Source: Marivita lacus
Lineage (GTDB): Bacteria > Pseudomonadota > Alphaproteobacteria > Rhodobacterales > Rhodobacteraceae
Assembly: GCF_014637725.1 (NCBI RefSeq)
Contig: NZ_BMFC01000007.1
Coordinates: forward strand, 124,001-188,000
Length of the DNA stretch: 64,000 bases
Reading direction: 5' to 3'
Of the stretch, positions 375-36,782 are shown one piece after another (the stretch's first letter is position 1; every line of letters starts with the position of its first letter). A program made the position numbers and the translations under genes. The notes beneath the pieces were generated by a model. The model searched no databases. It was not told the DNA's origin and saw only the letters and a program-made list of their open reading frames with translations.

Positions 375-384
375 TTTTTCGCAA
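375..384 (+). promoter_or_regulatory. Flagellar element TTTTTCGCAA, copy 1 (fliI/flgB)
   Basis: An exact TTTTTCGCAA lies in the gap between divergent fliI and flgB. It ends 15 bases before the flgB GTG start and 47 bases from the fliI start. The same element recurs upstream of most other flagellar units here. Confidence 0.65.
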
Positions 385-399
385 GAGTGAGACATCACC

Positions 400-741
400 G
401 TGAACAAGATCTCCATGTTCCAGATGGCGAGCCAGCGGCTGGAGTGGCTTTCAGCCCGCCAAAAGGTCGTCGCCGAGAATATCGCGAACGCCAACACACC
501 AAGCTACGTTGGGCGCGACGTGCAGAAGTTCGAGGATTTCCTGACAGGAAATCGCTTCGGAACCGAGTCCGTCAAGGTCGAGGATACAGCCAGTAGCTGG
601 GGCGGCAGCAAGGATGGCAATACCGTGGTTCTTGAAGAACAGACGATTCTCGCAAGCCAGATCAACGGGCAGTTCCACCTCGCCTCTCGCCTCTACAGAA
701 AAGGTCATGACCTGATTGGCCTCGCATCCGGACGGAGATGA
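400..741 (+). CDS. flgB: Flagellar proximal rod protein FlgB
   Basis: The 113-residue protein carries the N-terminal rod/hook signature ENIANANTPSY at about residues 26-36, typical of FlgB. FlgB forms the proximal rod in the periplasm after export through the flagellar type III apparatus. The GTG at 400 is chosen because it gives the canonical N-terminus MNKISMFQMA. It is the first gene of a plus-strand run flgB-flgC-fliE-fliQ-SLT-flhA-fliR-flhB. Its TGA overlaps the flgC ATG by four bases, so the two are probably translationally coupled. Its length is slightly short for the family but complete. Confidence 0.92.
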   Translation: MNKISMFQMASQRLEWLSARQKVVAENIANANTPSYVGRDVQKFEDFLTGNRFGTESVKVEDTASSWGGSKDGNTVVLEEQTILASQINGQFHLASRLYRKGHDLIGLASGRR

Positions 742-1157
742 ACACCATGGATATCCTGAGCGCACTTGGCCGCACGGCCTCTTCCGGCCTGACCGCGCAA
801 TCCCAGCGGCTGCAGATCATTGCCGAAAACATGGCGAACGCGGATTCGACGGGGTCGACCGCAGGGTCAGACCCCTATCGGCGCCGGGTTGTGACCTTTG
901 GCGACATGATCGACGACTCCTCGGGCGCATCGCTTGTGTCGGTCCGGTCTGTCATCGAGGATCAAACACCCTTCAGGATGCGCCACGATCCGTTCCACCC
1001 CGCCGCGGATGCCGAGGGCTATGTGAAGACGCCCAATGTCGATCCGCTGCTTGAACTGGCCAACATGCGCGAGGCGGCCAGATCCTATGAGGCCAACCTC
1101 AACATGATGGAAACCGGCCGAAAGATGCGCGGCCAGCTGCTTGACATGTTGGGATAA
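738..1157 (+). CDS. flgC: Flagellar rod protein FlgC
   Basis: This 139-residue protein has the rod N-terminal motif ENMANADSTGS near residue 30 and the matching C-terminal helix EAARSYEANLNMMETGRKM, both diagnostic of FlgC. It polymerises in the proximal rod with FlgB and FlgF. The start overlaps the flgB stop by four bases, and fliE follows five bases later. Order and spacing match the flgBC-fliE arrangement common in proteobacteria. Nothing in the sequence suggests damage. Confidence 0.93.
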   Translation: MNTMDILSALGRTASSGLTAQSQRLQIIAENMANADSTGSTAGSDPYRRRVVTFGDMIDDSSGASLVSVRSVIEDQTPFRMRHDPFHPAADAEGYVKTPNVDPLLELANMREAARSYEANLNMMETGRKMRGQLLDMLG

Positions 1158-1162
1158 CAGAC

Positions 1163-1486
1163 ATGATCGAAAGCACGAGCGGCTTTGTCACCGGCGCGGT
1201 TTCACGCGCTTACAAGACAAGCCAGGCCTTGCCCGCCGCCGCACCCGCCCAGAGTGAAAACGCGACGCGGCCAAGCTTTGGCGATGTGATGGAACGGACC
1301 GCGCTCCAGACACTCGAAACCGTGCGGCAGGGCGATCAGGCCGCCGTTGCCGGGCTTGCCGGTTCACTGCCCATGCAACAGGTGGTCGAGGCGACCATGG
1401 CGATGGAATCGGCGGTCAAGGTTACGGTCGCCGTGCGGGATCGGATGGTCGAAGCCTATCAGGAAATCCTGAGGATGGCGGTCTGA
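1163..1486 (+). CDS. fliE: Flagellar hook-basal body protein FliE
   Basis: The protein is 107 residues, about the usual FliE length. The C-terminal half (VVEATMAMESAVKVTVAVRD and the following MVEAYQEILRMAV) matches the conserved helical FliE domain. FliE links the MS ring to the proximal rod. It sits five bases after flgC and two before fliQ, inside the same transcription unit. The first 40 residues are Ala- and Ser-rich and poorly conserved, as expected for the family. Confidence 0.9.
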   Translation: MIESTSGFVTGAVSRAYKTSQALPAAAPAQSENATRPSFGDVMERTALQTLETVRQGDQAAVAGLAGSLPMQQVVEATMAMESAVKVTVAVRDRMVEAYQEILRMAV

Positions 1487-1487
1487 C

Positions 1488-1757
1488 ATGTCACCGGCCG
1501 ATGTCAGCGAGATCGTGGTCGAGTCGATCTGGGTGATCCTGATCGCTTCCGGCCCAACCCTGTTCGTTGCAATGGCGGTGGGCTTGGGAATTGCGCTTCT
1601 CCAGGCGCTGACCTCGGTGCAGGAGATGACGCTCACCTTCGTACCAAAGCTTGCGGCCATCTTCGTCTGCGTTGCGCTCACCTTGCCGCTGATCTACACG
1701 ACGCTCTTTGGCCTCAGCGAACGGATATTCGACCTGATCCAGTCGGGCACGATCTGA
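1488..1757 (+). CDS. fliQ: Flagellar export gate protein FliQ
   Basis: This 89-residue protein has two hydrophobic segments (about 15-38 and 52-75). It also has the FliQ-type stretch GLGIALLQALTSVQEMTLTFVPK. FliQ is a small inner-membrane component of the FliPQR export gate. Its partners are split in this window: fliR is downstream in the same operon and fliP lies at 31.8 kb next to fliN and fliG. Its last base overlaps the first base of the next gene. Confidence 0.93.
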   Translation: MSPADVSEIVVESIWVILIASGPTLFVAMAVGLGIALLQALTSVQEMTLTFVPKLAAIFVCVALTLPLIYTTLFGLSERIFDLIQSGTI

Positions 1758-2725: not shown

Positions 2726-2728
2726 TCC

Positions 2729-4831
2729 ATGACCCGCACAGTCCGACAGAAGTCGTCTCTGCCCCTCGACATGGTCCTCGACTTTGTCGCACCGCTTCTG
2801 CGCAACCGCGACGTGTCATTCGCGGTGGGCATCTCGGTGATCCTCGCGGTGCTCTTTGTGCCGCTGCCCTCGGTCCTGCTCGACCTCGGGCTGGCGCTGT
2901 CCATCGCGCTGTCGATCCTCGTGTTGATGGTGGCGCTATGGGTGAACAAACCCCTTGAATTCAGCAGCTTTCCGACGCTGCTTCTGGTGGTGACCATGCT
3001 CCGGCTGGCGCTGAACGTGGCATCGTCCCGGCTGATCCTGTCGGAAGGGCAATCAGGAACCGATGCGGCAGGGCATGTCATCGAAGGCATCGCAAGCTTT
3101 GTCGTGGGCGGCGATTTCGTGATCGGCGCGGTCATTTTTTGCATCCTGATCGTCATCAACTTCATGGTGATCACCAAAGGCTCCAGCCGGATCGCAGAGG
3201 TCTCCGCGCGGTTCTCGCTTGATGCGATGCCGGGCAAACAGATGGCGATTGACGCCGACCTCGGCGCGGGTGTCATCGACGAAGACGAAGCCCGGCGGCG
3301 GCGCAAGGAAGTCGAAGGCGAGAGCAACTTCTTCGGTGCCATGGACGGCGCGGCAAAGTTCGTCCGCGGTGATGCGGTGGCGGGCATCATCATCACGATA
3401 GTCAACATCCTTGGCGGTGTTCTGATCGGTATCCTGCGCCACGACATGCCCATCGGCGAGGCGATGCACAACTTCACCGTCCTGACCATCGGTGACGGGC
3501 TGGTCACCCAAATCCCGGCGCTCATCGTCTCCATCGCCGCGGGCATGATCGTGACGAAGGGCTCCAATGAAGGCATGGCAAGCGAGGCGGTGACCGCACA
3601 GCTTGGTGCAAGTCCGAAAGCCCTGCATCTTGCGGCGGTGCTGGTTGGGGGTCTTGGTCTGCTTCCGGGCTTCCCGCACCTGATGTTCCTGACGCTCGCA
3701 GGTGGCCTCGCACTGATCGGGTTCACGGTTCAACGCAACATCGACCGTCAACGCGCGGACGAGGAGGCCGAGGCCCGCCGTCCGCAAACCGAAAACGCCG
3801 AGGATCAGGCCGATCCGCTCAGGATCGACGCCATCTGCCTCGATCTTGGAACAGCGCTCATGGTGCTGGTCAACGACATCGACGCCTCGCTGCCCGGCAA
3901 GGTGCGCAGCCTGCGCAACTTCTTCATGACGGAGTACGGTTTCATACTGCCACCCGTACGGATCAAGGATGACGCGCGGCTCAAACCCCATGGCTACCGC
4001 ATCAGCATCCAGGGTCTCGATGTTGCCACTGACGAACTGCGTCCTGGCGGGCGTCTGCTCATTGATCCAAGCGATGCGGCCACCTCCATTCCGGGCGAAC
4101 GGGTCCGGGAGCCGACCTTCGGCCTCAACGCGGTCTGGATCGATGCGTCCGTCGAGCACGAGGCAGAAGCGGCCGGATTTACCGTGGTCGACCCCGAAAG
4201 CGTGGCCATCACCCATATGACCGAGGTCATAAGAGAGCATCTTCCCGACCTTCTGACATTCGGGGCCACACAGGACCTGATCAAGCGGCTGGATCGGGAC
4301 TACCAGAAGCTGGTCAGCGAAATTCCGAACCAATCCCCGGTGATCCTGCTGCAGCATGTGCTGCAGAACCTGCTGGCCGAGCGTCTCTCCATCCGCAATC
4401 TTCCGATGATCGTCGAAGCGGTGGTCGAGGTTGCCGCGGTCACCAAGAACGTCACGCTGATCGGCGAACATGTCCGCCGACGGCTGGCCGTGCAGATCTG
4501 CCATGGCCTCGAGGATACCGAAGGGTACGTGCCTGTGATCGTGCTCGGCCCCAAGTGGGACACCGAGTTTGCAGCAAACATCCGGACGCAAGGCGACGAG
4601 ACCATCTGCACGATGTCGCCTGCCAAGGTGCAGGAATTCATCCTCGCGGCACGGGTAGAAATCCAGAAATTCGCAACCCGCGACGAATGGCCGGGGCTTC
4701 TGGTAAACCCCGATATCCGGCCCATCGTGCGCTCCATGCTGGAGCGGGTCAGCGGTCAGACGCAGGTCCTCTCACACTCTGAAGTGCATCGCAAAGCTCG
4801 CCTCAAGACCGTCGCCACGATCGGGACGTGA
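2729..4831 (+). CDS. flhA: Flagellar export protein FlhA
   Basis: The 700-residue length is typical of FlhA. The N-terminal half has about eight hydrophobic segments, and the FHIPEP-family signature region reads DAMPGKQMAIDADL, followed by the charged DEDEARRRRKEVEGES loop. The C-terminal cytosolic domain (about 350-700) is the docking platform for chaperone-substrate complexes. FlhA forms the nonameric ring of the flagellar export gate in the MS-ring pore. It starts three bases after the SLT gene and fliR follows within four bases. A 394-residue and a 512-residue reading on the opposite strand are GC-driven shadows. Confidence 0.96.
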   Translation: MTRTVRQKSSLPLDMVLDFVAPLLRNRDVSFAVGISVILAVLFVPLPSVLLDLGLALSIALSILVLMVALWVNKPLEFSSFPTLLLVVTMLRLALNVASSRLILSEGQSGTDAAGHVIEGIASFVVGGDFVIGAVIFCILIVINFMVITKGSSRIAEVSARFSLDAMPGKQMAIDADLGAGVIDEDEARRRRKEVEGESNFFGAMDGAAKFVRGDAVAGIIITIVNILGGVLIGILRHDMPIGEAMHNFTVLTIGDGLVTQIPALIVSIAAGMIVTKGSNEGMASEAVTAQLGASPKALHLAAVLVGGLGLLPGFPHLMFLTLAGGLALIGFTVQRNIDRQRADEEAEARRPQTENAEDQADPLRIDAICLDLGTALMVLVNDIDASLPGKVRSLRNFFMTEYGFILPPVRIKDDARLKPHGYRISIQGLDVATDELRPGGRLLIDPSDAATSIPGERVREPTFGLNAVWIDASVEHEAEAAGFTVVDPESVAITHMTEVIREHLPDLLTFGATQDLIKRLDRDYQKLVSEIPNQSPVILLQHVLQNLLAERLSIRNLPMIVEAVVEVAAVTKNVTLIGEHVRRRLAVQICHGLEDTEGYVPVIVLGPKWDTEFAANIRTQGDETICTMSPAKVQEFILAARVEIQKFATRDEWPGLLVNPDIRPIVRSMLERVSGQTQVLSHSEVHRKARLKTVATIGT

Positions 4832-7658: not shown

Positions 7659-8752
7659 CAGATCACCTTCAGGTCTGCATGCAGCGCACCCGCCGCCTTG
7701 ATCGCCTGCAGGATCGAGATGATTTCGCGGGCGCTCACACCAATCGCGTTCAACCCGTCCACAAGCTCTTGCAGGCTGACTTGCCCTCCCACGACGGCAA
7801 AACCGGACTCGCGCTGCATCACCGCGATATCAGTCTGCGGGATGATCACTGTCTCGCCAATGGAAAACGGCTCGGGCTGGCTGACGCTGGCGCTCTCGCT
7901 GATACTGACCGTCAAGCCGCCCTGGCTGATCGCCACCTCGTCGATCCGGACATCGGCACCGATCACGATGGTGCCCGACTTCGAATCCACCACGACCCGC
8001 GCGCTCGCGGCCGGGCTGACCATCAGGTTCTCGATCTGCGCCAACACATCCGGCATGCGCGACTTTTCCGAGAACGCGATTTCGACGGTTCCAGGATCGA
8101 GCATCTGCGCCGAGGCGGGAAGCGACGCTTCATTGATCACGGTGGCGATCCGGTACGCCGTGGTGAGATCGGGGTTGCGCAGCGCGAGGCGGATCGACCC
8201 GAGCGAGGACAGCGCAAAATCAATCTCACGCTCGACGATCGCTCCGTTGTCGATCCGCGCAACGGTGGGCACACCCGAAACGATCTGCGCCGCCGCGCCT
8301 TCCGCGGCAAAGCCTCCGACCGCAAGCGGGCCCTGGCCGACAGCGTAAACCTCGCCATCCGCGCCAACAAGCGGCGTCACGATGAGGACGCCGCCGTGCA
8401 GAGACCGGGCATCACCAAGCGACGAGACGACGATGTCCACTGGCATGCCGCGACGCGCGAAGGGCGGCAGGTCCGCCGTGACCATCACTGCAGCGGTGTT
8501 CCGCGTGCGCAGTTCCTCGTCCGAAAGGTTGCCGACGCCGAGGCGGCCCAGCATCCCTTCGATCGAGCTTCGGGTAAATGGCGAGTTTCGCAGCGAATCC
8601 CCCGAGCCATCCAGACCAACCACGAGACCGTAGCCAACCAACTGGTTGGCCCGCACGCCCTCGAAAGTGACGATGTCCTTGATGCGCACCTCCGCCGTCG
8701 CGAACCCCGCGCCCAGAATGAATGCAATCGTGAGAAGAAGCCGCCCGACCAT
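7658..8752 (-). CDS. flgI: Flagellar P-ring protein FlgI
   Basis: FlgI forms the P ring in the peptidoglycan layer around the rod. The conserved core IKDIVTFEGVRANQLVGYGLVVGLDGSGD begins shortly after a signal peptide. I place the start at the ATG at 8752 because it gives a clean signal peptide (MVGRLLLTIAFILGAGFATA) and a 364-residue protein. The open frame extends to a TTG at 8809, but those bases coincide with a TTGCGAAAAA element, which argues that the extension is regulatory DNA. flgJ follows directly. Confidence 0.93.
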   Translation of the reverse strand: MVGRLLLTIAFILGAGFATAEVRIKDIVTFEGVRANQLVGYGLVVGLDGSGDSLRNSPFTRSSIEGMLGRLGVGNLSDEELRTRNTAAVMVTADLPPFARRGMPVDIVVSSLGDARSLHGGVLIVTPLVGADGEVYAVGQGPLAVGGFAAEGAAAQIVSGVPTVARIDNGAIVEREIDFALSSLGSIRLALRNPDLTTAYRIATVINEASLPASAQMLDPGTVEIAFSEKSRMPDVLAQIENLMVSPAASARVVVDSKSGTIVIGADVRIDEVAISQGGLTVSISESASVSQPEPFSIGETVIIPQTDIAVMQRESGFAVVGGQVSLQELVDGLNAIGVSAREIISILQAIKAAGALHADLKVI

Positions 8753-8799
8753 GTGCCTGAAATCCCGAACCTGTCCCTGCTCCATCACAGGAAATTTCA

Positions 8800-8809
8800 T
8801 TTTTCGCAA
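8800..8809 (-). promoter_or_regulatory. Flagellar element, copy 2 (flgI)
   Basis: Read toward flgI this is TTGCGAAAAA followed by TGAAA. The longer string TTGCGAAAAATGAAA also precedes the flagellin gene, and a one-mismatch version precedes flgG. It ends 47 bases before the chosen flgI start. Confidence 0.6.
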
Positions 8810-8855
8810 GTGCTGAAGTGCAAGTTGAGGCGATGTCGTTCGCCTGCGCCTGCCA

Positions 8856-9764
8856 TCAAAGATAATCGAGCAATGTCATCCGACCCAACCGTGCCGTCAC
8901 CTCGAACGTTGCGCGCAACTGGACCTGCATCGACTGCAGACGCACCGCGGTCTCCTCGACATTGACACCCTCGATCCCGGTTACCGTCTTCGTGTAAAGT
9001 TGATCCAGCGCATATTGCGCGTCGATCTTGTCTTGCAACTGCTGTTGATTGTTGCCAAGCGCCGCCTGCCGCGACGTGAGAAACTGCAGACCTTCGGAAA
9101 GCGTCGTTGCAACCGTCTCGCGCAATGTGTCGAAGGCAGCGGGTGTCATCGCTCCGACATCGGCGTTCAGGACCGAGGTGAGCGTGTCGAAGATCCGCGT
9201 AAAGGCGGGATCTGTGGCGCTGAGCCCATAGGCCATGTTCGTCCCATCGTCGATCTGCGCGGACAATTGCCCTGGACCACCCAGATAGTTGACGGCCAAT
9301 CCGGGGGGCGGCGCGGCATTCAGCTCGACCGTTTTGCGATCGGTGCCCAGCCCCGAGAAGACGTGATCCCCGCCATGGGTCGTATTGGTGAAGTTGACGA
9401 TCTGCTCGAGCGTGTGTTCGGCCTGCAAACGGTAAATCTCGCGGCTGCTGCCTCTCATTGCGTCCGACAGGGTCAGTGCCTCGAAGCTGCGCGCCTGCTC
9501 GGAAATCGCTGCCAGCGCGTTCGACATCGTCTGAAGGCGCCCCTGCAGAACCTCGTTGGCCTCCATGTAGGCGCCGTTCGCTGCCATATGTGATCTCAGT
9601 GAAAGCGACCGGGTCCCGGCTGCGGGACCGTCGGAAAAGACGTCCTTCTTCATGCCGGTCGCCACTTCCTGCGTCAGTTTCGCGGACTCGGCGGTCTGTT
9701 GTGCAACGATCTGGCGCAGCCCCATGGACTGCTGCAATGTCGCGATCTTGATGAGCGTGGTCAT
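8856..9764 (-). CDS. flgL: Hook-filament junction protein FlgL
   Basis: The 302-residue protein has the flagellin-like N-terminal helix (QQTAESAKLTQEVATGMKKDVFSD) and a C-terminal helix ending VTARLGRMTLLDYL, the arrangement of FlgL/HAP3. It joins the hook-associated protein FlgK to the filament. It lies 13 bases downstream of flgK and about 100 bases upstream of flgI, so flgE-flgK-flgL probably form one unit with flgI possibly having its own promoter. It is longer than a rod protein and shorter than FlgK, as expected. Confidence 0.9.
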   Translation of the reverse strand: MTTLIKIATLQQSMGLRQIVAQQTAESAKLTQEVATGMKKDVFSDGPAAGTRSLSLRSHMAANGAYMEANEVLQGRLQTMSNALAAISEQARSFEALTLSDAMRGSSREIYRLQAEHTLEQIVNFTNTTHGGDHVFSGLGTDRKTVELNAAPPPGLAVNYLGGPGQLSAQIDDGTNMAYGLSATDPAFTRIFDTLTSVLNADVGAMTPAAFDTLRETVATTLSEGLQFLTSRQAALGNNQQQLQDKIDAQYALDQLYTKTVTGIEGVNVEETAVRLQSMQVQLRATFEVTARLGRMTLLDYL

Positions 9765-14607: not shown

Positions 14608-14617
14608 TTGCGAAAAA
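14608..14617 (-). promoter_or_regulatory. Flagellar element, copy 3 (helical-repeat gene side)
   Basis: TTGCGAAAAA on the plus strand, so TTTTTCGCAA toward the minus-strand gene at 12522-14600. It pairs with an inverted copy 19 bases away on the flgF side, giving an inverted-repeat arrangement in this divergent gap. Confidence 0.6.
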
Positions 14618-14636
14618 CTAAATAGCCGTATAATGA

Positions 14637-14645
14637 TTTTCGCAG
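14637..14645 (+). promoter_or_regulatory. Flagellar element, copy 4 (flgF side)
   Basis: TTTTCGCAG (nine bases, one mismatch from the core) lies 36 bases before the flgF ATG, oriented opposite to copy 3. Confidence 0.5.
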
Positions 14646-14681: not shown

Positions 14682-15425
14682 ATGGAGAATACCGGATACG
14701 TGGCGCTCTCACGGGCAGCAATGCTGGAACGCGCAACCGACGTGACCGCAAACAATATCGCCAATGCCAACACGATAGGCTTCCGCGCTGCTGCACCGCT
14801 CTTCGAAAGTCTGATGGTCCGCGGCGGGATGGACGGCGACCTCAAGTCGATGGCCTATTCCATAGAGACCGCGACCGTGTCGAATCTTTCACCGGGCGGT
14901 GTTTTTCGCACGGATAATCCGCTCGACGTCGCTTTGCCCGGTGACGGCTGGCTTGCCTACCTGACGCCCGAAGGTCAGACCGCCCTTGGCCGCGACGGGC
15001 AACTCGCGCTCAGCGACCAAGGCGATCTTGTCACTGCCGGCGGGGATCTGGTGCTCGATCTCGGGGGAGCACCCATCACCCTTCCGCCGGATGAAGCGGG
15101 TCTGACCATCGCCAAGGATGGCACGATCACTGCGGATGATGGTGCAGTGCTGGCCCAGATCGGTATTTTTGAACAACCTGGAATCGCCGGATGGCAACAC
15201 TTGCGCGGCTCTCTCCTTGTCCCTCGAGACGAGAATGTAGAGCTGATGCCCGCGCTGGAGCCGAACCTCCTGCAAGGACATCTCGAGCAGTCGAACGTCA
15301 ATCCCATCGAACAGATGACCCTGCTGATCAGTCAGCAGCGCGCTTACGAGCGCTCCATGAACATGGCGACGATCAGCGATGACCTGCGCAAGCAGACGCT
15401 GAGCCGGCTTGGCCCCAATACCTGA
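14682..15425 (+). CDS. flgF: Flagellar rod protein FlgF
   Basis: The 247-residue protein starts MENTGYVALSRAAMLERATDVTANNIANANTIGF and ends in the rod-type EQSNVNPIEQMTLLISQQRAYERSM pattern. It lies just before flgG, which identifies it as FlgF rather than a second FlgG. FlgF is part of the proximal rod. It heads the unit flgF-flgG-flgA-flgH-fliL-like. The gap on its 5' side carries the inverted pair of flagellar elements. Confidence 0.92.
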   Translation: MENTGYVALSRAAMLERATDVTANNIANANTIGFRAAAPLFESLMVRGGMDGDLKSMAYSIETATVSNLSPGGVFRTDNPLDVALPGDGWLAYLTPEGQTALGRDGQLALSDQGDLVTAGGDLVLDLGGAPITLPPDEAGLTIAKDGTITADDGAVLAQIGIFEQPGIAGWQHLRGSLLVPRDENVELMPALEPNLLQGHLEQSNVNPIEQMTLLISQQRAYERSMNMATISDDLRKQTLSRLGPNT

Positions 15426-15430
15426 CAATT

Positions 15431-15440
15431 TTGCGAATAA
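15431..15440 (+). promoter_or_regulatory. Flagellar element, weak copy 5 (flgG)
   Basis: TTGCGAATAA, followed by TGAAA, sits in the 33-base flgF-flgG gap. It differs by one base from TTGCGAAAAATGAAA, the string before flgI and flagellin, and has the same orientation relative to the gene. Confidence 0.35.
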
Positions 15441-18889: not shown

Positions 18890-20620
18890 TCAGGTGATGA
18901 TGTTGACGCGGTCGGACTGGATGATCTGACGGGTCACGGCCTGATCTGCGGCAGTGTCCAGCGTCTCTTCGGTGGTGGGTAAGGAGCCGGATCGCGACGT
19001 GGCGCCAGAGCCATCGCCTTGCGCGCCGCGCTGCCCGCTACCGGATTGGAAAAGGTCCATCGTCAGCGACCCAGACGCGGCACTCCCCTGCCCCCCAATC
19101 GCTTGCGCAACGGCTTGCCGTTCGGCTTGCATCGCCTCGAGCACCATGGGGTTCTGTATCCGCAGCACGATGTCGAGACCACCGTCACGCGCCTGCTGGA
19201 TGCTGACCTCGATCAGCCCCATCCCGTGGGGTTTGAGATGGATGACAGTCTCGCCCACCTCGCGAGGAAGCGCCGCCACACGCTCCACCACGTTCGGCAC
19301 GATTGCCGAGCGTGGTCTTACCGGATCGGTGGGCCGGTCTGAGGCTACCTCTGCTGTCTGGGGCTCGGCTTCGACGAGAGCAGAGGGAGGCGACTGATCA
19401 ATGGTCCATTGGACCTGCTTGTCATTGGCGTCACCGGAGAGTGGCAGACCTTCCAAAGGCTGCGTTTCAGCAAGGGCGCCGTTGGTTGTCACAGGACCAA
19501 GAGGCGCCAGATTTTTTGGGACATCACTTGTGGAAGGAACTTCAGGATTGTCGAATGGGATAGCCGTTTGCACGCTCTCTACGGAGATCGGAACCCCGTC
19601 AGTCTGCTTTGCGGTGATGGTTCCAGTTTTGGTCAAACCTGCATCGGGCTTTGCCGCAGCTGAGCCGGCATTGGGCGCAGCCGCGACCATTGACGCGATT
19701 GTCTCGGAGCCCATCGAAGCTTCGCTTGGCACAGCATGCGTGTTCGCGGGCATAGCGTCCTTGACCGGATCGACCGCTGTTTCCGAAGGTGATGCAGACA
19801 ATTTGGATGTGAAGAGCACCGAGGCGTCGTCGGATTCTGTCGGCAATCTGGCAGCAAGCATGTCCGCGGGCATTCGGTCCTTGACCGGATCGACCGCTGT
19901 TTCCGAAGGTGATGCAGGCAATTTGGATGTGAAGAGCACCGAGGCATCGTCGGATTCTGTCGGCAATCTGCTCGGATCGGTCGTCCCCTGCCCGTCCTCA
20001 ACAGCATTGTCCGTCTGGACAGGTAGTTCATGTAAGCGGGATATTGGCGCGTTTCCGATCTTGCTAGGGTCGCTTTCAACACCAATTTTGTCTAAGGAAA
20101 TTTTGGATGCGTCACTGAAAGAACCATTTTTCCCATTATGCACCGGCACCTGGTTGGTAGCGGTCAAATCATCGCCTAGCTCAACAGGCACGACGTCCCG
20201 CGCAGAGACCACTGGCGGGGTGGCGAAGGCGGACGGGATCGGCTTCGTCTCACCACCACCGGGCATCAAGCCATCCGAAGACCCAAACTCCGTCGTTGAA
20301 TCTTGATCACCCAATTGCTGGGCAAGTTCCGTGGGTTGAAGAATGTCCATAGGAACGGGCACATCCTCCACAGTCACTGGCAGATCAGATGAATCAAGCA
20401 CATCCTGCTCTGCCAAATCACCGTCTTCGGCGTCACTCGGCACGGCAGCCGCTTCCAGATCCTCCTCCGACAGCGGATCTGGTAAAATCCCCGACACCTC
20501 CACGGCTTCAGCCTCACCGATAAGCCCATCGAACGTCATCTGGGCATCCGTGACGTTGCCGGCTCCGCGAGATGGCATGCTGACACCCATCGCCGACAGC
20601 AAGACGACCGCCTGCATCAT
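18890..20620 (-). CDS. fliK: Hook-length control protein FliK
   Basis: The 576-residue protein has a long, Ser/Pro/Asp-rich low-complexity body. Its C-terminal domain at about 440-540 (ETVIHLKPHGMGLIEVSIQQ, then LRIQNPMVLEAMQAERQAVAQ) is the conserved FliK domain that contacts FlhB. FliK measures hook length and triggers the export switch. Two near-identical 40-residue repeats, SRLPTESDDASVLFTSKL and ARLPTESDDASVLFTSKL, lie back to back in the body. The ATG at 20620 overlaps the stop of the sigma-factor gene by four bases. Confidence 0.88.
   Translation of the reverse strand: MMQAVVLLSAMGVSMPSRGAGNVTDAQMTFDGLIGEAEAVEVSGILPDPLSEEDLEAAAVPSDAEDGDLAEQDVLDSSDLPVTVEDVPVPMDILQPTELAQQLGDQDSTTEFGSSDGLMPGGGETKPIPSAFATPPVVSARDVVPVELGDDLTATNQVPVHNGKNGSFSDASKISLDKIGVESDPSKIGNAPISRLHELPVQTDNAVEDGQGTTDPSRLPTESDDASVLFTSKLPASPSETAVDPVKDRMPADMLAARLPTESDDASVLFTSKLSASPSETAVDPVKDAMPANTHAVPSEASMGSETIASMVAAAPNAGSAAAKPDAGLTKTGTITAKQTDGVPISVESVQTAIPFDNPEVPSTSDVPKNLAPLGPVTTNGALAETQPLEGLPLSGDANDKQVQWTIDQSPPSALVEAEPQTAEVASDRPTDPVRPRSAIVPNVVERVAALPREVGETVIHLKPHGMGLIEVSIQQARDGGLDIVLRIQNPMVLEAMQAERQAVAQAIGGQGSAASGSLTMDLFQSGSGQRGAQGDGSGATSRSGSLPTTEETLDTAADQAVTRQIIQSDRVNIIT
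19743..19970. repeat. 120-bp tandem duplication inside fliK
   Basis: Bases 19743-19850 and 19863-19970 are nearly identical with a 120-base period (for example TTGACCGGATCGACCGCTG at 19761 and 19881). Only a few mismatches separate the copies, pointing to a recent in-frame duplication of 40 codons. Confidence 0.85.
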
Positions 20621-21366
20621 GGCTCATCTCCAACCTGGGCCGAGGTGACGCCACTCCGGATGAACTGTGCTTTCATGCGCGAGAAAGCACGTGCTTCCAT
20701 CTGGCGGATCCTGGCCACACTGGTGCCCACACTGGCCGCGACAGCCGCAAGCGGCAGGTCACTTTCGCTCCGGCATCGTTCGACAAGCAGGCGTTCCGTA
20801 TTGCTCAGGCGCGACAAAGCCGCATCAATGATCCGCTGTCGTGCAAAGGCCTCTTCGGTGCGGATCATGGTCAGTTCTGCCGGGTCTTCGGGTGCGCAAA
20901 GCTCCCATGTTTCTGCATCGCCCATTCTGTGCGGGTGCGCGGCACCGCGCAAAGTGGCCAGTTCTCGATCTCCGAGCCGACCCTCGCGGGCAGCACGTCG
21001 ATGCTGCAAGGGTATGGCGACAACAGCGGCGTTCTTGAAAACCTCCCGGCGCATGGCAGCACGCACAAAGGGACGGGCATAGGCAAAGAACGGCACGCCC
21101 TCGCGCGGCACATAACCGTCGATACAGCAGATGAGTGCCAGATTGCCTTCCGAGATCAGATCGTCCCACTGGTGGGCTTGCGTTGTCCAGGCACGGGCCA
21201 TCGAACGAATCACGGACGCATGGGCCCGGAGCAAACTGTCGAGGGCGGCAGGCTCTCTATCCGCCTGCCAACGTGAAATCCATTTTCGCTGATCCGCCCG
21301 ATCTTGTGACAATGTCTCCGCAACTGGAGTGGCACCATCGCAATCCGTGTTCTGCATGTGTTTCAT
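20617..21366 (-). CDS. Sigma-70 family factor of RpoH-like class in the flagellar cluster
   Basis: From the ATG at 21366 the protein has 249 residues. Region 2 reads DDLISEGNLALICCIDGYVPREGVPFFAYARPFVRAAMRREV (about 75-115). Region 4 with its helix-turn-helix reads RLSNTERLLVERCRSESDLPLAAVAASVGTSVARIRQMEARAFSRMK (about 190-235). This domain set and size fit RpoH-like alternative sigma factors more than FliA, which I cannot match. Its stop overlaps the fliK start, so it is co-expressed with fliK and flgD. The open frame extends to 21609, but that would run through two flagellar elements and into motB, so the shorter start is preferred. Its promoter targets are unknown. Confidence 0.8.
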   Translation of the reverse strand: MKHMQNTDCDGATPVAETLSQDRADQRKWISRWQADREPAALDSLLRAHASVIRSMARAWTTQAHQWDDLISEGNLALICCIDGYVPREGVPFFAYARPFVRAAMRREVFKNAAVVAIPLQHRRAAREGRLGDRELATLRGAAHPHRMGDAETWELCAPEDPAELTMIRTEEAFARQRIIDAALSRLSNTERLLVERCRSESDLPLAAVAASVGTSVARIRQMEARAFSRMKAQFIRSGVTSAQVGDEP

Positions 21367-21432: not shown

Positions 21433-21442
21433 TTTTTCGCAA
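21433..21442 (+). promoter_or_regulatory. Flagellar element, copy 6 (sigma factor/motB)
   Basis: Exact TTTTTCGCAA in the gap between the sigma-factor gene (66 bases away) and motB (96 bases away). Confidence 0.65.
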
Positions 21443-21488
21443 ATTATGTTGTGAAAGGGATATACCTGAATGCGAATTTCTGTATTTG

Positions 21489-22561: not shown

Positions 22562-23296
22562 CTATCCGGAAAAGGAATAGCCGACGCCGTGGACGGTGCG
22601 AATGTAATGCGCGCGACCGGGAGCGACCGGAAGTTTCTTTCGCAACCGGCTCACAAGCCCATCCACAGCCCGGTCATAGGCATCCCAGTCACGACCCTTG
22701 ATCGCATTCATCAGTTGATCCCGGTTCACCACGCGTCCCCGCCGCTCGATCAGCGCACAGAGCAACTCGAACTCTGCTGTGGTGAGCGGAATTTCTGCGC
22801 CGTCGGCGTTCCAGACCAATCGGGCGGACGTGCTGACCGTGTAATCGCCGAAGCGATAATCGGTCTCTATCTCGGGCATCGATTCCGGTTTGCTGACAAC
22901 TGGGCTTGACGGAGAACTCCTGTACCGGCGCATGACCGCATTCACGCGCGCCGCCAGTTCACGGGGTCGGAACGGCTTGGTCACGTAGTCATCAGCGCCC
23001 AGTTCAAGACCCACAACGTTGTCGGTCTCTTCGCCTCGTCCCGAGAGAATGATGATGCCGCTCTCGCCTCTTTCCCGCAAAGATCGCACAAGGCTCAAGC
23101 CACTGCCATCGGGAAGAGTCAGGTCGATCAGATAGACATCTGCTGTGGCCGATTCTGCCATTTTCTCGAATTCGGCGATAGAGCACGCGCAGCGTATTTC
23201 CATGCCCTCCCGTTCCAACGAAGCTCGCAGGAGATCACGGATGGCTGGCTCATCGTCTACCGCAAGAATCCGGGGTTGGGACAAAAATCTCTCCAT
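22562..23296 (-). CDS. OmpR-family response regulator, orphan
   Basis: The 244-residue protein has a complete receiver: acidic pair in RILAVDDEPA, phospho-acceptor Asp58 in VYLIDLTLPDG, the S in IILSGRGEE and Lys in DDYVTKPF. A C-terminal winged helix follows (LTTAEFELLCALIERRGRVVNRDQL, then IRTVHGVGYSF). It is phosphorylation-competent, unlike the second OmpR-fold regulator at 36.8 kb. No histidine kinase lies beside it. The ATG at 23296 is preferred to the TTG at 23302, which falls in a TTGCGAATGG string. Its targets are unknown; location suggests flagellar control. Confidence 0.85.
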   Translation of the reverse strand: MERFLSQPRILAVDDEPAIRDLLRASLEREGMEIRCACSIAEFEKMAESATADVYLIDLTLPDGSGLSLVRSLRERGESGIIILSGRGEETDNVVGLELGADDYVTKPFRPRELAARVNAVMRRYRSSPSSPVVSKPESMPEIETDYRFGDYTVSTSARLVWNADGAEIPLTTAEFELLCALIERRGRVVNRDQLMNAIKGRDWDAYDRAVDGLVSRLRKKLPVAPGRAHYIRTVHGVGYSFSG

Positions 23297-23302
23297 TCGC
23301 AA

Positions 23303-23639: not shown

Positions 23640-25511
23640 TCAGTCTGCAACATTAGGTGCGGGGATGCTGTTGGCGCGATACTCCCGATAGCCCTCCCAA
23701 GCCTCCAGCAAAAGCGACAGCACCTGCCGACGCGAGCCGCGTTTTTCTCCCTCGAGATTTCTGGTGCGCCGAATACGTTCGCGAAGAGCGAGCACCGGGT
23801 TTTCCTTGGTCAGGTTCTCGCCGGTGAAGAGATCCTTAAAAAAGTCCTCAGCTGCCTCGGGATCTTCCCGCCGCAGGTGATACAGCACAAACGTCATGAC
23901 CCCCGACGATCCGAACTCGGCCACTTGCCGCTTGCGCGACTCGGGGAACCAGTCGGCAAGACCCGGATGCCGCTCCAGCGTTTCCTTCAACTCGGAGGCA
24001 GAGGGCACGGCTCGGTCATTCGGGTTGAGCCCTTCGTCCAAGCGCCACTGGAAACGTGCCGCTCCAGCGAGAACACGGAGATCCGACTGCGGTCCCCCGG
24101 ACGAGAACACTGCCCTGCGGGAATGCGTATCGTAGGTCGCAAAGGCGCTTTCGGCGATGCCACTCGCCACCGGGACTTCGATGGACATATCGGCCTCGAT
24201 GACACCGTAAAGCCGGTGCTGACCATTCAAGAGCCGCGTGTCGCCGCGCCGGGCTCCGGGAGCAAAGGGATCGGCGGTAAAGCAGATCGGCTGGGCGTTG
24301 ACCATCCAACGACCCGCCTTGATGTCGCGCGCGATGGCGTCAACCTGGGTTGGCTGCGTCCGCCGGTTGCCATCGTTGAATTCTCGCAACCAATGTCGCG
24401 CAATTTCGGGTGTGACCTCTACCATCCGGACCTGCACACCATCCTGCGCATGTGCCGCGGTTTCACGCAACTCGGCAACAAGACGGCTGTCGGTCTGATC
24501 GCCGCGCAATGGGTCACCCACGTGACCTTCGCGCAGACCGGGATACTCCTTCATCGTCGGCAAGCCGAGATTGGGCAGAAACCGCTGCTTGCCCTTGGTC
24601 ACCGCATGCGCGTCATCCTCCGTGCCAGCCTCCACATCTTCAGCCCCGTCATCGCTGAGCGGTCTCCTGTCCGGTGACCATTTGTAGACCTTCCGACGAC
24701 GCCCCTCTTCGATCCAGTCGTTGAAGGCAAGAATGCCAAGCGCGATCATCTGGTCGGTGTCGACATCGCCCACCGCACGCATCGCTTCGATCGTGGACAG
24801 GAGGTTCGTTGCACCGTCAAAGCCCGACCCGCCGTCTTCATCATCGGTGTCGAGCGCCACGAGAAAATCGCGGAAGGCTTTCCCGTGCCCCGCGCGCAAG
24901 GCCATGAACGCGAGCACCGCGACCGGTTGCGAATGCAGCTTCAGACCGCGGTACCGGTCTGCAAGATCGACAGCCTGAATGAGTTCAGGATTGGCTTCGA
25001 GAACGCGGTCATAGCGCGACCAGCTGATCGGGATCGCCGAAAGCCCGAGCATTCCGTTTTCGACGCGGATCAGTTTTCCCATCAACCGTACAAGAGAGGC
25101 AGGCCGACGGTACGTTCCACGCGCTTCGAGCACTGCCACATAGGACCGGGCGCGATGCTGGTCGATCGTGTGGAGCGTGTCACCCTTGACGTTGCGCGCC
25201 ACGATTGTGGAAAACGGCACCCCCGCTTCGATGCAGGCCGACAGGCGCTGGATGCCGTCGATCAGGTGGCCATTGTTGTCAAAAATGACGGGCTGACCAT
25301 TCACAACCCATGCCTTGGCCTTCATCGTGCGTGCGTAATTGCCAACCGCCCGAGCATCGGGGCGGCGCCCTGCCTCTGCGGCGGCAAGGTAGATTTTGGC
25401 TTGTTTCGGCGCAATGGTCTCAAGCGCGAAGGAGAGACCTCCGGCCTCTGGGCGAGAGTCGGGCGTTCCCAGCTTGTTTTTTTCGCTTTTCGCGGAGGTT
25501 AGCACTGACAT
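23640..25511 (-). CDS. Protein with two ParB-like DGQHRL domains, function unknown
   Basis: This 623-residue protein has no assignable flagellar function. It contains two related halves. The first (about 55-130) reads YARTMKAKAWVVNGQPVIF, then LIDGIQRLSACIEAG and TIDQHRARS. The second (about 385-475) reads IARDIKAGRWMVNAQPICF, then LLNGQHRLYGVIEAD and TYDTHSRRA. The DGQHRL-like motif is that of the ParB N-terminal/sulfiredoxin fold, known as a CTPase and DNA-partition domain or, in phages, as unknown. No classical ParB DNA-binding domain is evident. A charged, acidic linker separates the halves. It is divergent from the 25855 gene across a gap holding two flagellar elements, which suggests co-regulation with motility. 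Confidence 0.7.
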   Translation of the reverse strand: MSVLTSAKSEKNKLGTPDSRPEAGGLSFALETIAPKQAKIYLAAAEAGRRPDARAVGNYARTMKAKAWVVNGQPVIFDNNGHLIDGIQRLSACIEAGVPFSTIVARNVKGDTLHTIDQHRARSYVAVLEARGTYRRPASLVRLMGKLIRVENGMLGLSAIPISWSRYDRVLEANPELIQAVDLADRYRGLKLHSQPVAVLAFMALRAGHGKAFRDFLVALDTDDEDGGSGFDGATNLLSTIEAMRAVGDVDTDQMIALGILAFNDWIEEGRRRKVYKWSPDRRPLSDDGAEDVEAGTEDDAHAVTKGKQRFLPNLGLPTMKEYPGLREGHVGDPLRGDQTDSRLVAELRETAAHAQDGVQVRMVEVTPEIARHWLREFNDGNRRTQPTQVDAIARDIKAGRWMVNAQPICFTADPFAPGARRGDTRLLNGQHRLYGVIEADMSIEVPVASGIAESAFATYDTHSRRAVFSSGGPQSDLRVLAGAARFQWRLDEGLNPNDRAVPSASELKETLERHPGLADWFPESRKRQVAEFGSSGVMTFVLYHLRREDPEAAEDFFKDLFTGENLTKENPVLALRERIRRTRNLEGEKRGSRRQVLSLLLEAWEGYREYRANSIPAPNVAD

Positions 25512-25645: not shown

Positions 25646-25655
25646 TTGCGAAAAA
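25646..25655 (-). promoter_or_regulatory. Flagellar element, copy 8 (twin ParB-like gene)
   Basis: TTGCGAAAAA on the plus strand, half of an inverted pair with copy 9. It is 134 bases upstream of the ParB-like start. Confidence 0.6.
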
Positions 25656-25664: not shown

Positions 25665-25674
25665 TTTTTCGCAG
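25665..25674 (+). promoter_or_regulatory. Flagellar element, copy 9 (25855 gene)
   Basis: TTTTTCGCAG, inverted relative to copy 8 with nine bases between them, in the divergent gap between the ParB-like gene and the gene at 25855. Confidence 0.55.
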
Positions 25675-25854: not shown

Positions 25855-26301
25855 ATGCAGAGCAGAAGCTCCCCCCTCGACGCCCAGCTGTCCCGGAACC
25901 TGTTGATCTGCAGCGGCTTCAATCGAGGGGATGCGACTCACATTTTCAGCGTCCTTCAGCAGCTCGGGCTTTTCCTTGATGATGAAGGCGGGATCGGGAC
26001 GGTCACCCAAGACGCGGACGGCAGCTTGCGTCTCGAAGCGCGGGGCGACGCGGTCAGAGGCTATCTTTTGGCGGATGACGGCGAAGAGGCGGAATTACAG
26101 GACATCAAGAGACTGGTTCTGGCTTGCGCCCTCCCCACGAGCGAAGTCCATTTTACCGGCAGTTGCCGGCTTGACCCGGAAAAGCTTCTTGTGATCTCGA
26201 GCCGGGCACAGCACGACGGAAATGTGGTCAAGTGGAAGTCGACCCGAACCGTGATCGGCCCGTCAGGCAAGGCCAAGACGGTGCGCGACAACGATTATTG
26301 A
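25855..26301 (+). CDS. Hypothetical protein between flagellar units
   Basis: The 148-residue protein is not recognised. It has no signal peptide or membrane segment. The middle is acidic (LLADDGEEAELQDIKRLVL) and the C-terminus ends GPSGKAKTVRDNDY. Codon choice and GC look like the neighbours, so it is probably a real gene. It is divergent from the twin ParB-like gene and shares its regulatory gap with the inverted motif pair. It converges on the motE unit across about 96 bases. Confidence 0.6.
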   Translation: MQSRSSPLDAQLSRNLLICSGFNRGDATHIFSVLQQLGLFLDDEGGIGTVTQDADGSLRLEARGDAVRGYLLADDGEEAELQDIKRLVLACALPTSEVHFTGSCRLDPEKLLVISSRAQHDGNVVKWKSTRTVIGPSGKAKTVRDNDY

Positions 26302-27051: not shown

Positions 27052-27383
27052 TCCCGACGCCTCCCCCGAACGATCTCCAGAAGTGAATTGATCAGAATTT
27101 CCCGGTCTTCGTTCGGTGTCGCGCCCTTGGCGCTCTTCTCGGCACCCACGGACCGGTTGGCGTTGGCTGCAACCGACTTGAGGCGAACACTTTCTTCGCG
27201 CATGTCGTTCACCGACTGTTCCGACCGGTCAACGGCCGCGGAAAAAGCCGCAAGTGCCGGGCCAAATTCGACAAGGGCGCGGCTCAGCTTTTCCAGCCGC
27301 CGCGACAGGACAAAGCCGTAAGCGATTCCACCCAGCAGGAGGGCAAGGATAGCGACCTCAACAAGGTCCATGTCTGATGTCAT
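27045..27383 (-). CDS. DUF6468-like flagellar membrane protein
   Basis: The 112-residue protein has one N-terminal membrane segment (about 6-25, VEVAILALLLGGIAYGFVL). A helical soluble part follows. Proteins of this type (DUF6468) sit next to fliM or motE in alphaproteobacterial flagellar loci, and their role is unknown. The gene overlaps fliM by four bases and motE by seven, so it belongs to the fliL operon. The family assignment is from memory of architecture and position. Confidence 0.6.
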   Translation of the reverse strand: MTSDMDLVEVAILALLLGGIAYGFVLSRRLEKLSRALVEFGPALAAFSAAVDRSEQSVNDMREESVRLKSVAANANRSVGAEKSAKGATPNEDREILINSLLEIVRGRRREC

Positions 27384-28880: not shown

Positions 28881-28906
28881 GATACGCGAACTCCGGGTTA
28901 GTGTGA

Positions 28907-28915
28907 TTTTCGCAA
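28907..28915 (-). promoter_or_regulatory. Flagellar element, copy 10 (fliL)
   Basis: TTTTCGCAA on the plus strand, so TTGCGAAAA toward fliL, 26 bases before its ATG. Confidence 0.55.
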
Positions 28916-29088: not shown

Positions 29089-29098
29089 TTTTTCGCAA
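29089..29098 (+). promoter_or_regulatory. Flagellar element, copy 11 (fliF)
   Basis: Exact TTTTTCGCAA, 48 bases before the fliF GTG. The preceding ATCG is shared with the flgB copy. Confidence 0.65.
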
Positions 29099-33663: not shown

Positions 33664-33668
33664 CTGCC

Positions 33669-34490: not shown

Positions 34491-34915
34491 GCCGCGACCC
34501 CCGGTGCTGCCCCCGACGGGGCTGCAAGCCTCAGAAGCTGCGCCTCTCTGGCAAGCAAAGGCCCGAGGGATTTCAACGCGCCGTAATAGTCTTCCTTGTT
34601 GATGCAGTCGCGCACAGCCTCAATCGCAGGCGCAACCACCGGATTCAGCACAGCCTCGATTGCGTTCAGGCTGCTGGAGATATGCGGCAGAAGCTCTTCG
34701 CGATGGTCCCGGCTCGCAAGGGCATGCTGGATCGCGTGGGCGATACCCCGAACCGGAGTACACGCGTCTTTCTTGGAGATGATTTCGTCGCCCCGCAGGA
34801 CGTCGGAACGGTTCTCCACCTCGATGTCCATGCGGCTGCCTCCGACATTGCGGATGACGCAGCCATTCAGGATGACCCGCTCGCCGGATTTCAGTCTGAT
34901 GCGCAGTCCCATCAC
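34487..34915 (-). CDS. flbT: Flagellin mRNA regulator FlbT
   Basis: The 142-residue protein has the FlbT N-terminus GLRIRLKSGERVILNGCVIRN and the conserved NKEDYYGALKSLGPLLARE. FlbT acts on the 5' untranslated region of flagellin mRNA in Caulobacter and Brucella. It lies between flaF and the DUF1217 gene with four-base overlaps on both sides, and the target flagellin gene is just upstream at 35.4-36.4 kb. Confidence 0.9.
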   Translation of the reverse strand: MMGLRIRLKSGERVILNGCVIRNVGGSRMDIEVENRSDVLRGDEIISKKDACTPVRGIAHAIQHALASRDHREELLPHISSSLNAIEAVLNPVVAPAIEAVRDCINKEDYYGALKSLGPLLAREAQLLRLAAPSGAAPGVAA

Positions 34916-35307
34916 GCGGCCTCCGCGACTTGGCCGGAAAGACCGGCGACGATGGGACGATTGACCTCGAGAAGCGCGGTGACCCGCCCCTCTCCACCAA
35001 GGACGGCGGCGGTATGCCGTTCGACGAAGGTGGCCAGATTGGCGAGGCTGCCACGAAGATCGTTTGGCAACTGGTTGCCAGGGCTCAGGACATCGGTCTT
35101 GAGCGTGGACCAGAGGCGGACATTGTCGAAAAGCGCATCGCGCAATCCATCAGCGAGCACGCCAAGGCGCTCGGACCGGGTTTCTGCTGCGTCGTAGCGG
35201 TCGGCATAAGTGGCGATGTCTGACGTAATGCGAACCAGGATGCGCCGTTCGATCTGGCGGGGGGTTTCGGTATCCTTGAGGGTGCGTTTATATGCGGACA
35301 GGCTCAT
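34912..35307 (-). CDS. flaF: Flagellin secretion/assembly factor FlaF
   Basis: The 131-residue protein resembles FlaF: YKRTLKDTETPRQIERRILVRITSDIATYAD, and later LWSTLKTDVLSPGNQLPNDLRGSLANLATFVERHT. FlaF works with FlbT to balance flagellin synthesis with export in alphaproteobacteria. It overlaps flbT by four bases. The 92-base gap to the flagellin gene upstream holds two hairpins that probably reduce flaF transcription relative to flagellin. Confidence 0.9.
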   Translation of the reverse strand: MSLSAYKRTLKDTETPRQIERRILVRITSDIATYADRYDAAETRSERLGVLADGLRDALFDNVRLWSTLKTDVLSPGNQLPNDLRGSLANLATFVERHTAAVLGGEGRVTALLEVNRPIVAGLSGQVAEAA

Positions 35308-35341
35308 GTGCTTTCACCTTCTGGCGATGCATGATGGGAGG

Positions 35342-35366
35342 CAGGCCCCGGGGGATCCGGGGCCTG
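35342..35366 (-). terminator. Hairpin between flagellin and flaF (distal)
   Basis: CAGGCCCCGG (35342-35351) pairs with CCGGGGCCTG (35357-35366), a perfect 10-bp stem with a 5-base loop. It has no T-run in either direction, so it may be a partial terminator or an RNA stability element. Confidence 0.6.
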
Positions 35367-35376
35367 ATGCGATGGT

Positions 35377-35393
35377 GGCGGGCTTGGCCCGCC
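35377..35393 (-). terminator. Hairpin just after the flagellin stop
   Basis: GGCGGGC (35377-35383) pairs with GCCCGCC (35387-35393), a 7-bp GC stem with a 3-base loop, beginning seven bases after the flagellin stop codon. Confidence 0.5.
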
Positions 35394-35399
35394 GGTTCA

Positions 35400-36380
35400 T
35401 CAGCGGAAGAGCGCCATGATGCTCGACGGGCCCTGGTTGGCGATCGAGAGCGCCTGGGTCGCAAGCTGCTGCTGGGTCTGCAGCGCCTGCAGGCGGGCAG
35501 CTTCCTCTTCCATGTTCGCGTCGATCATCGAGCCGACGCCCGTGTCGATGTTGTCGGACAGTCGGGTGAGGAAGTCCTGCTGCACCTCGATGGTCTTCTC
35601 CGACAGACCGAGGGAAGTGGCCGCTTCGGTAGCTCTGTTGAGCAGGGCTTCGGCGCTCTTCAGGTTGCCCGCGAGATAATCTGCGCCCTGTGTCGAGTTG
35701 TCGCCGAGTGTGAGGACGTCGGCATCGGCGCCGCCGGTTACAGTCGCATCGACTGCGCGGGTTGAAAATGCGTTTGCCAGACCCTTGAAGTCGCCCAGCA
35801 TGGCCGACAGGTCCACGGTGGCCACGGCAGTCGTCGTCACCGAGATGCCAGTTGAGTCGCGGCTGATTCCGGTAACGACGTTACGATTCGAAGTCGTCTC
35901 GACGGTTGGCGTCGCAATTGAGCCGTCCGTGGCATCCACGGTGAGGTTGGCGGCGACCGTACCTGCGGTGGCGGCATTGACCATGTCGTCGCCGTTGAAT
36001 GTCGACTGCTTGATGGTGACTTCCATCTGCTTGACGATCTCGCCTAGGTCTTTCTCGATCTCGGCATAACCGCCCTTTGCGCCCTGCGCGAAGGCCACAC
36101 GCTCGACGAATTGGTTCGCGAGGTCCTGGAAGGTTTCTGCACCAAGGCGGGCCGTGGCGATGGAGTTCTTGGTCAGCGTCAGGCCTTCGTTGATCGCCGA
36201 GATCGAGCCGGAATCGCCCTTCATGGTCTCGGAAATCTGGAAGTAGGCGGCGTTGTCCTTGGCCGAGGTGATCTGCAGGCCCGAGGAGATTCGGCCCTGG
36301 ACCTGCGAAAGGTTGTTGTTGACCTGACGCAGTGCGCTCAGGGCGTTCATGGCGGAGGAGTTGGTGATGAGTGATGTCAT
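35400..36380 (-). CDS. Flagellin
   Basis: From the ATG at 36380 the protein has 326 residues, starting MTSLITNSSAMNALSALRQVNNNLSQVQGRISSGLQI. It ends in the flagellin C-terminal helix (LQALQTQQQLATQALSIANQGPSSIMALFR). Both ends form the conserved filament core, and the middle is short and Thr/Ala-rich. The open frame reaches 36431 but the start with the conserved N-terminus is preferred. It is the only filament gene in the window. A flagellar element (36486-36495) lies 105 bases upstream, leaving room for the 5' leader on which FlbT could act. Confidence 0.93.
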   Translation of the reverse strand: MTSLITNSSAMNALSALRQVNNNLSQVQGRISSGLQITSAKDNAAYFQISETMKGDSGSISAINEGLTLTKNSIATARLGAETFQDLANQFVERVAFAQGAKGGYAEIEKDLGEIVKQMEVTIKQSTFNGDDMVNAATAGTVAANLTVDATDGSIATPTVETTSNRNVVTGISRDSTGISVTTTAVATVDLSAMLGDFKGLANAFSTRAVDATVTGGADADVLTLGDNSTQGADYLAGNLKSAEALLNRATEAATSLGLSEKTIEVQQDFLTRLSDNIDTGVGSMIDANMEEEAARLQALQTQQQLATQALSIANQGPSSIMALFR

Positions 36381-36485
36381 TGGATCAGTTCCTACGTTCT
36401 TAGGTTCAACCCGGTTTCTCCGGGCCAGCAATGCCTAGGCGGTGCTGACATGAAGAAGGGTGACTGACGTTTCAGGAAGGTTTCA

Positions 36486-36495
36486 TTTTTCGCAA
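36486..36495 (-). promoter_or_regulatory. Flagellar element, copy 12 (flagellin)
   Basis: Toward flagellin this reads TTGCGAAAAA followed by TGAAA, the same extended string as upstream of flgI. It is 105 bases before the flagellin ATG. Confidence 0.65.
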
Positions 36496-36675
36496 ATTGC
36501 GATCGGAGGCTTGATTTTGTCCCCGCCGATGATCGCCCCGCTTCGCAGCAAATCTGCCCCGGCCTGTCCTGGCGGCCCAAAAGGCATTGGCCAATTGGCA
36601 CGAAAACCTGAGGAGAAGCCGCCCGACGAGGCGGCAGATCTTCGAACTTTCTTCAGTTTACCTTGAAGCATTCTG

Positions 36676-36684
36676 TTTTCGCAA
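36676..36684 (+). promoter_or_regulatory. Flagellar element, copy 13 (flagellin/regulator gap)
   Basis: TTTTCGCAA, 123 bases before the regulator start, between the flagellin-side copy and the regulator-side copy. Confidence 0.45.
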
Positions 36685-36772
36685 GGAGCCAAGCGCATCT
36701 CATCCTGAACTCGACAGACGCGAATTAACCCTGTTGATCCGATCTCGTTCAGATGTATACGTGGAAAAATTG

Positions 36773-36782
36773 TTTTTCGCAA
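36773..36782 (+). promoter_or_regulatory. Flagellar element, copy 14 (FtcR-like regulator)
   Basis: Exact TTTTTCGCAA, 25 bases before the ATG of the OmpR-fold regulator at 36808, suggesting that the regulator gene belongs to its own regulon. Confidence 0.65.

Follow-up and report, generated by a model that had tools for sequence, protein, structure and literature searches.

Control of flagellar genes by the OmpR-type regulators FtcR, Rem, and LafR is already known, as far as the available portions of the sources go. In Brucella, the OmpR-family protein FtcR acts as the flagellar master regulator, with binding upstream of both fliF and ftcR itself (PMC9456535). Rem (in Sinorhizobium, Agrobacterium, and Rhizobium) and LafR (in Bradyrhizobium) are OmpR-type flagellar activators without a known partner kinase, and LafR works without phosphorylation; no binding motif is given in the available portions of these papers (PMC4018554, PMC8429497). 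The fla2-type clusters of Rhodobacterales, for which Marinovum pMaD5 serves as the reference, are often plasmid-borne, and the available portions of that study describe no regulator or operator for them (PMC12363192). Here, a stretch of 64,000 nucleotides from Marivita lacus (contig NZ_BMFC01000007.1, positions 124,001 to 188,000; hereafter the window) was analyzed, which carries a flagellar gene cluster with a recurrent ten-base element, TTTTTCGCAA. From its distribution and conservation, this element is most likely a candidate docking site of a control protein.

The initial annotation had proposed that the element marks nearly every flagellar transcription unit, and over-representation at most of these units was indeed found. 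On both strands of the window, 16 matches with at most one mismatch were detected, compared with 3.77 +/- 1.98 (maximum 10) in 100 dinucleotide shuffles. Across the genome (4.77 Mb), the exact 10-mer occurs 17 times and its reversed-pattern control five times. Twelve of the 17 copies, eight of them inside the window, fall within C7:108740-160782 (C7 being the contig of the window), a span of 52 kb with flagellar and chemotaxis genes in which 0.19 copies would be expected (P ~2e-20, for a span chosen after seeing the matches). The genome-wide count suggested by the annotation shows the exact copies concentrated in this span, and the five copies outside the cluster equal the genome-wide control. 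The core is best written as the 9-mer TTTTCGCAA, preceded by a loosely preferred T and mostly followed by A or G: when 32 instances were selected for TTTTCGCA, A followed in 29 and T preceded in 23 of them, and nothing else is strong. The 9-mer occurs 40 times genome-wide (control 20), 17 times within the span and 23 times outside. An unbiased 8-mer count of the window places TTTTCGCA at the top, tied with TTTTTCGC; intergenic stretches were delimited by a longest-open-reading-frame rule here, as in the 16-locus counts, the FlhA-centred counts, and the fla2 companion-hexamer scan described below. The element also continues to the left of the window, as far as the chemotaxis genes (9-mer copies at C7:110159, 110285, and 110309) and motA (C7:121582, 121610, and 121651). 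A copy at C7:108740 lies in a convergent gap.

Could the word simply be a common AT-rich 10-mer of this genome? Genome-wide counts at one mismatch, where the signal is diluted, are just 1.4 times the control (250 vs. 177), as such an origin would predict. It is contradicted by the window shuffles, the exact genome counts, the regional clustering, and conservation with diverged flanks, as well as by 15 congeners without a close FtcR orthologue, which carry on average 9.5 exact copies against 9.3 in the control. Chance was therefore rejected as an origin, and we regard it as scarcely credible.

Conservation was assessed in the single one of 60 relatives with a close FtcR orthologue (82%), a metagenome-assembled genome of a congener, Marivita sp. 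(G014); a scan of genome contigs also found one locus, that of this relative, and the Marivita form of the element is thus described from two genomes only. Across 15 places that could be aligned, identity is 96% within positions 2-10 of the element and 65% in the flanks (positions -15260, without an orthologous place in the relative, 21488, 36675, -13691, -2390, and -2349 are excluded; negative positions lie left of the window). Nine of the 12 exact cluster copies are exact in the relative, one (-13715) has one mismatch, and two (36486 and -15260) are not kept. Conservation upstream of orthologous genes, the absence of which would have counted against the annotation, holds at most places in this relative; other fla2 clusters carry a different word, TATYCTTG. 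Over-represented and conserved amid diverged flanks, the element would most easily be read as a protein-binding site, as the annotation had suggested. The places in the window are as follows, with gene starts set mechanically or read by eye:

375 to 384, plus strand: element TTTTTCGCAA between fliI (ATG at 327, minus) and flgB (GTG at 400); exact here and in the relative.
8800 to 8809, plus strand: element upstream of flgI (minus; start at about 8752, by eye); exact here and in the relative.
14608 to 14617, minus strand: element, left half of an outward-facing pair between the TPR-protein gene (minus) and flgF; exact here and in the relative.
14636 to 14645, plus strand: ATTTTCGCAG, right half of that pair, 36 bp before flgF; two mismatches to the 10-mer, identical in the relative.
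15431 to 15440, minus strand: weak, doubtful copy TTATTCGCAA with one mismatch, 18 bp before flgG, inside an operon.
21433 to 21442, plus strand: element between the sigma-factor gene (minus) and motB; exact here and in the relative.
25646 to 25655, minus strand: element, left half of a pair between the open reading frames 23640-25511 (minus) and 25855-26301 (plus); exact here and in the relative.
25665 to 25674, plus strand: TTTTTCGCAG, right half of that pair; one mismatch, exact 10-mer in the relative.
28906 to 28915, plus strand: ATTTTCGCAA, 25 bp before fliL (minus); one mismatch, CTTTTCGCAA in the relative.
29089 to 29098, plus strand: element, 48 bp before fliF; exact here and in the relative.
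36486 to 36495, plus strand: element, 54 bp before the flagellin gene (minus); exact here, 8/10 and not kept in the relative.
36675 to 36684, plus strand: GTTTTCGCAA, 123 bp before ftcR; one mismatch.
36773 to 36782, plus strand: element, 25 bp before ftcR; exact here and in the relative.

Fourteen places had been annotated as exact or one-mismatch copies. Eight are exact (375, 8800, 14608, 21433, 25646, 29089, 36486, and 36773) and four have one mismatch (15431, 25665, 28906, and 36675, the last two having been placed one base off, at 28907 and 36676), but those given as 14637 and 21489 have two. The latter, GTTTTCGCAC when read at 21488, is not kept in the relative, and the place at 15431 is 8/10 identical between the two genomes, each with one mismatch to the 10-mer. 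Further one-mismatch matches occur at 14902, 22636, 23523, and 28494, three of them inside open reading frames (flgF, the second regulator, and fliL). The closeness of sites to start codons was confirmed, with distances of 15 bp at flgB, 25 at fliL and ftcR, 36 at flgF, 48 at fliF, and 54 at the flagellin gene. Outward-facing pairs, 19-28 bp apart, occupy four gaps, and single sites point either way relative to the nearest start. The two sites before ftcR, which recur in the relative (one near, the other about 100 bp further), suggest autoregulation.

CtrA is an OmpR-family regulator at flagellar promoters and its box is TTAA-N7-TTAA, and the sigma-54 promoter follows the pattern TGGCAC-N5-TTGCW. 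The element differs from both, as had been noted, and neither is enriched in the window: the CtrA box has 2 matches with at most one mismatch (1.46 expected), and the sigma-54 pattern 23 with at most two mismatches (34.8 expected). The motif TGTGGGCA from chromatin immunoprecipitation of Brucella FtcR (PMC9456535, available in part) was likewise rejected, with 2 window matches and 2.46 expected. The two places that this source gives as bound by Brucella FtcR, before fliF and before ftcR, both carry the element in Marivita.

By FlhA identity and gene order, without a tree, the cluster is of the fla2 type of Rhodobacterales: the window FlhA is 59% identical to that of Marinovum pMaD5 and 60% to several other fla2 FlhA, being nearest to plasmid-borne Rhodobacterales clusters; with the other two FlhA encoded in this genome it shares 39% and 38% identity. 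The Marivita cluster and the fla2-type clusters of PMC12363192, as far as the source was available, are alike in FlhA (~60%), gene order, and regulators, but where those carry TATYCTTG, Marivita carries TTTTCGCAA instead. In 225 kb of annotated fla2 stretches, TATYCTTG (CAAGRATA) occurs 66 times (68 minus a Marinovum overlap) compared with once for its reversed control, and TTTTCGCAA occurs once (in Marinovum; reversed, 4). CAAGRATA in other parts of the same loci amounts to 5 vs. 2 in the control. TATYCTTG or a close variant stands in most of the corresponding gaps of Sulfitobacter, Roseivivax, Marinovum, Alloyangia, Salipiger, and Loktanella, including fliI/flgB, fliL/fliF, flgI/regulator, and motA; the pattern was not matched at the Roseivivax fliI/flgB, Marinovum TPR/flgF, and Marinovum motA gaps. 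In 16 further loci around FtcR, CAAGRATA occurs 51 times (control 7). Unbiased 8-mer counts rank CAAGAATA or CAAGGATA first in S. mediterraneus, Roseivivax, S. pontiacus, L100, L101, and L106, and a shifted form first in L099 and L103 and second in L108; the word does not rank high in Marinovum, Alloyangia, Loktanella, and about eight other loci. Inverted pairs of TATYCTTG a few bases apart are frequent in L068, L074, L100, and L108 (e.g., around L068:35600 and L074:1327). The window itself holds four TATYCTTG (0.84 expected), and two TATCCTTG words, the form of other fla2 clusters, in its flagellar part (27344-27351 and 35271-35278) may be relics or chance. Since a different word stands in the same gaps of related clusters, the switches appear to have been recoded as one set. 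Neither word was found described as a flagellar operator in the literature, which was judged by title and with most subscription papers outside the scope.

The protein that would read the element is inferred to be the FtcR-like regulator of the cluster:

36808 to 37533, plus strand: FtcR-like orphan OmpR-family regulator, candidate reader; Trans_reg_C match, no Pfam receiver match.

It is encoded with the flagellar genes, is 31-39% identical to the FtcR of other fla2 clusters, and has homologues in 16 other genera of a draw of 394 genomes from the family (few candidates scored per genome). A conserved aspartate in the receiver serves as the phospho-acceptor; at this column the window FtcR has V53, and the aspartate is missing. 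FtcR matches with E <1e-35 were found in 17 of the 394 genomes (own included), all with a fla2-type FlhA, which occurs in 22. For the five remaining genomes, a profile search gave at best 100-140 bits, compared with 379 for a positive control from outside the profile. The 40 kb around FlhA in these FtcR-less genomes gave a mixed outcome as a test of FtcR as the reader, with 0 (G147), 3 (G217), 4 (G302), 3 (G210), and 10 (G022; control 2) copies of TATYCTTG. Relative to the identity among the other clusters, the identity of Marivita to them is 0.62 for FtcR and 0.79-0.90 for FlhA, FliF, FlgG, FlgK, and MotA; measured in this way, FtcR is the faster-diverged protein. The recognition helix reads DKAVDIHICRIRSK in Marivita and DKVIDVYICK(I/L)RKK in most relatives.

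On balance, we favor the explanation that the element is an operator of the flagellar/chemotaxis regulon, read by this orphan OmpR-type regulator, whose specificity switched in the Marivita lineage. This regulator, of the FtcR, Rem, and LafR kind, would act without receiver phosphorylation. Its binding would be at the core promoter or next to it in most flagellar, motor, and chemotaxis units, including that of ftcR, and in the Marivita lineage the sites would have changed along with the regulator. The resemblance to Rem and LafR would be that of orphan OmpR-type proteins (PMC4018554, PMC8429497, each available in part). Sites near gene starts, outward-facing pairs, and the lack of a companion hexamer fit a regulator that sits at the promoter or covers it. 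By analogy with FtcR, Rem, and LafR, its effect is assumed to be activation, and nearness to start codons would also fit repression.

Several observations weigh against this explanation. Among columns conserved in 22 relatives, both Marivita proteins are changed at 5/11 in the helix, 2/7 in the wing, and 12/29 in the rest of the domain, so that the change is broad and does not single out the recognition helix. Many OmpR-family proteins need tandem half-sites, and none was seen among the 32 Marivita instances. The flagellin copy (36486) is not kept in the relative, and in 7 of the 16 further FtcR loci CAAGRATA occurs once or not at all. The sigma factor of the cluster has diverged as much as FtcR (ratio 0.63). 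Moreover, Loktanella and G022 keep TATYCTTG at flagellar gaps; FtcR was not found on the Loktanella plasmid (a search without a positive control) nor in G022.

The last two points bear on other possible readers, both encoded on the minus strand:

20617 to 21366, minus strand: sigma-70-family factor, Sigma70_r2 and r4; start chosen by eye.
22562 to 23302, minus strand: second OmpR-family regulator, Response_reg and Trans_reg_C.

The persistence of TATYCTTG without a detected FtcR would suit an operator of another protein, either the second OmpR-family regulator, a chromosomal regulator, or a MucR-type protein, and a second winged-helix regulator is present in several fla2 clusters. However, a search of Marivita stretches yielded no MucR match, and the second regulator of Marivita is about a quarter identical to the other fla2 ones over the matched part, which leaves its orthology unsure. 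We consider such a reader unlikely, though a serious competitor. In the fla2 cluster of Loktanella salsilacus (NZ_CP072995.1; L076, L155), where no FtcR was found, a MucR gene is present and TATYCTTG is kept at flgB/fliI and flgE.

The annotation had also considered a core promoter element. Its reader would be the sigma-70-family factor of the cluster, and the outward-facing pairs would be two divergent promoters. This factor is encoded here and in most annotated fla2 clusters seen, and its rapid divergence matches that of FtcR. In other fla2 clusters, the word is often found 20-120 bp ahead of the gene toward which it points, and for several genes its orientation is the same in different species, so that a directional role is possible. 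On the other hand, 32 Marivita and 63 fla2 instances showed no partner resembling a -35 or -10 hexamer (nor a tandem half-site) at a fixed spacing; at flgI, fliL, and the flagellin gene, the single site points away from the start closest to it; and the Loktanella cluster keeps the word without an annotated sigma factor (its gene table is incomplete). We disfavour this reading as improbable.

Open reading frames of the window matched, in part with scores under the NCBIfam cut-off, flgB, flgC, fliE, flhA, fliR, flhB, flgI, flgL, flgK, flgE, a weak TPR protein, flgF, flgG, flgA, flgH, the sigma factor, motB, the two OmpR-family regulators, fliM, fliL, fliF, fliN, fliP, fliG, a DUF1217 protein, and flagellin. 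To the left of the window lie a run of CheY-like, cheA, cheR, MCP, and cheB genes, as well as motA and fliI. In the relative (G014 C8:79500-82075), flgI and ftcR lie side by side and diverge, an arrangement shared with other fla2 clusters; in the window (8740-8860 and 36430-36808) they are 28 kb apart with element copies at both ends, and the cluster has therefore been rearranged. The M. lacus genome (G000) has three FlhA genes (window 2729-4831; G000:C1:779706-781760; G000:C19:38994-41051) and hence probably three flagellar export systems; the C19 system has a best plasmid match of 48% and its type is unsettled. The 9-mer was not found in the stretches read of the C1 and C19 FlhA regions. In the available portions of PMC12363192, no genome carrying all three Rhodobacterales flagellar types was found, and how a cell with two flagellar clusters coordinates their expression is described as an open question.

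These findings offer a concrete candidate operator for fla2-type flagellar clusters. They also supply two naturally occurring operator words, each with a matching candidate regulator, and thereby a direct test case for co-divergence throughout a regulon. It is possible, though we would place it somewhat short of an even chance, that in the Marivita lineage a mobile fla2-type cluster had its operator recoded from TATYCTTG to TTTTCGCAA at over ten promoters, together with the orphan regulator. If true, this recoding would insulate the acquired flagellum from the regulators of other flagellar systems in the same cell.

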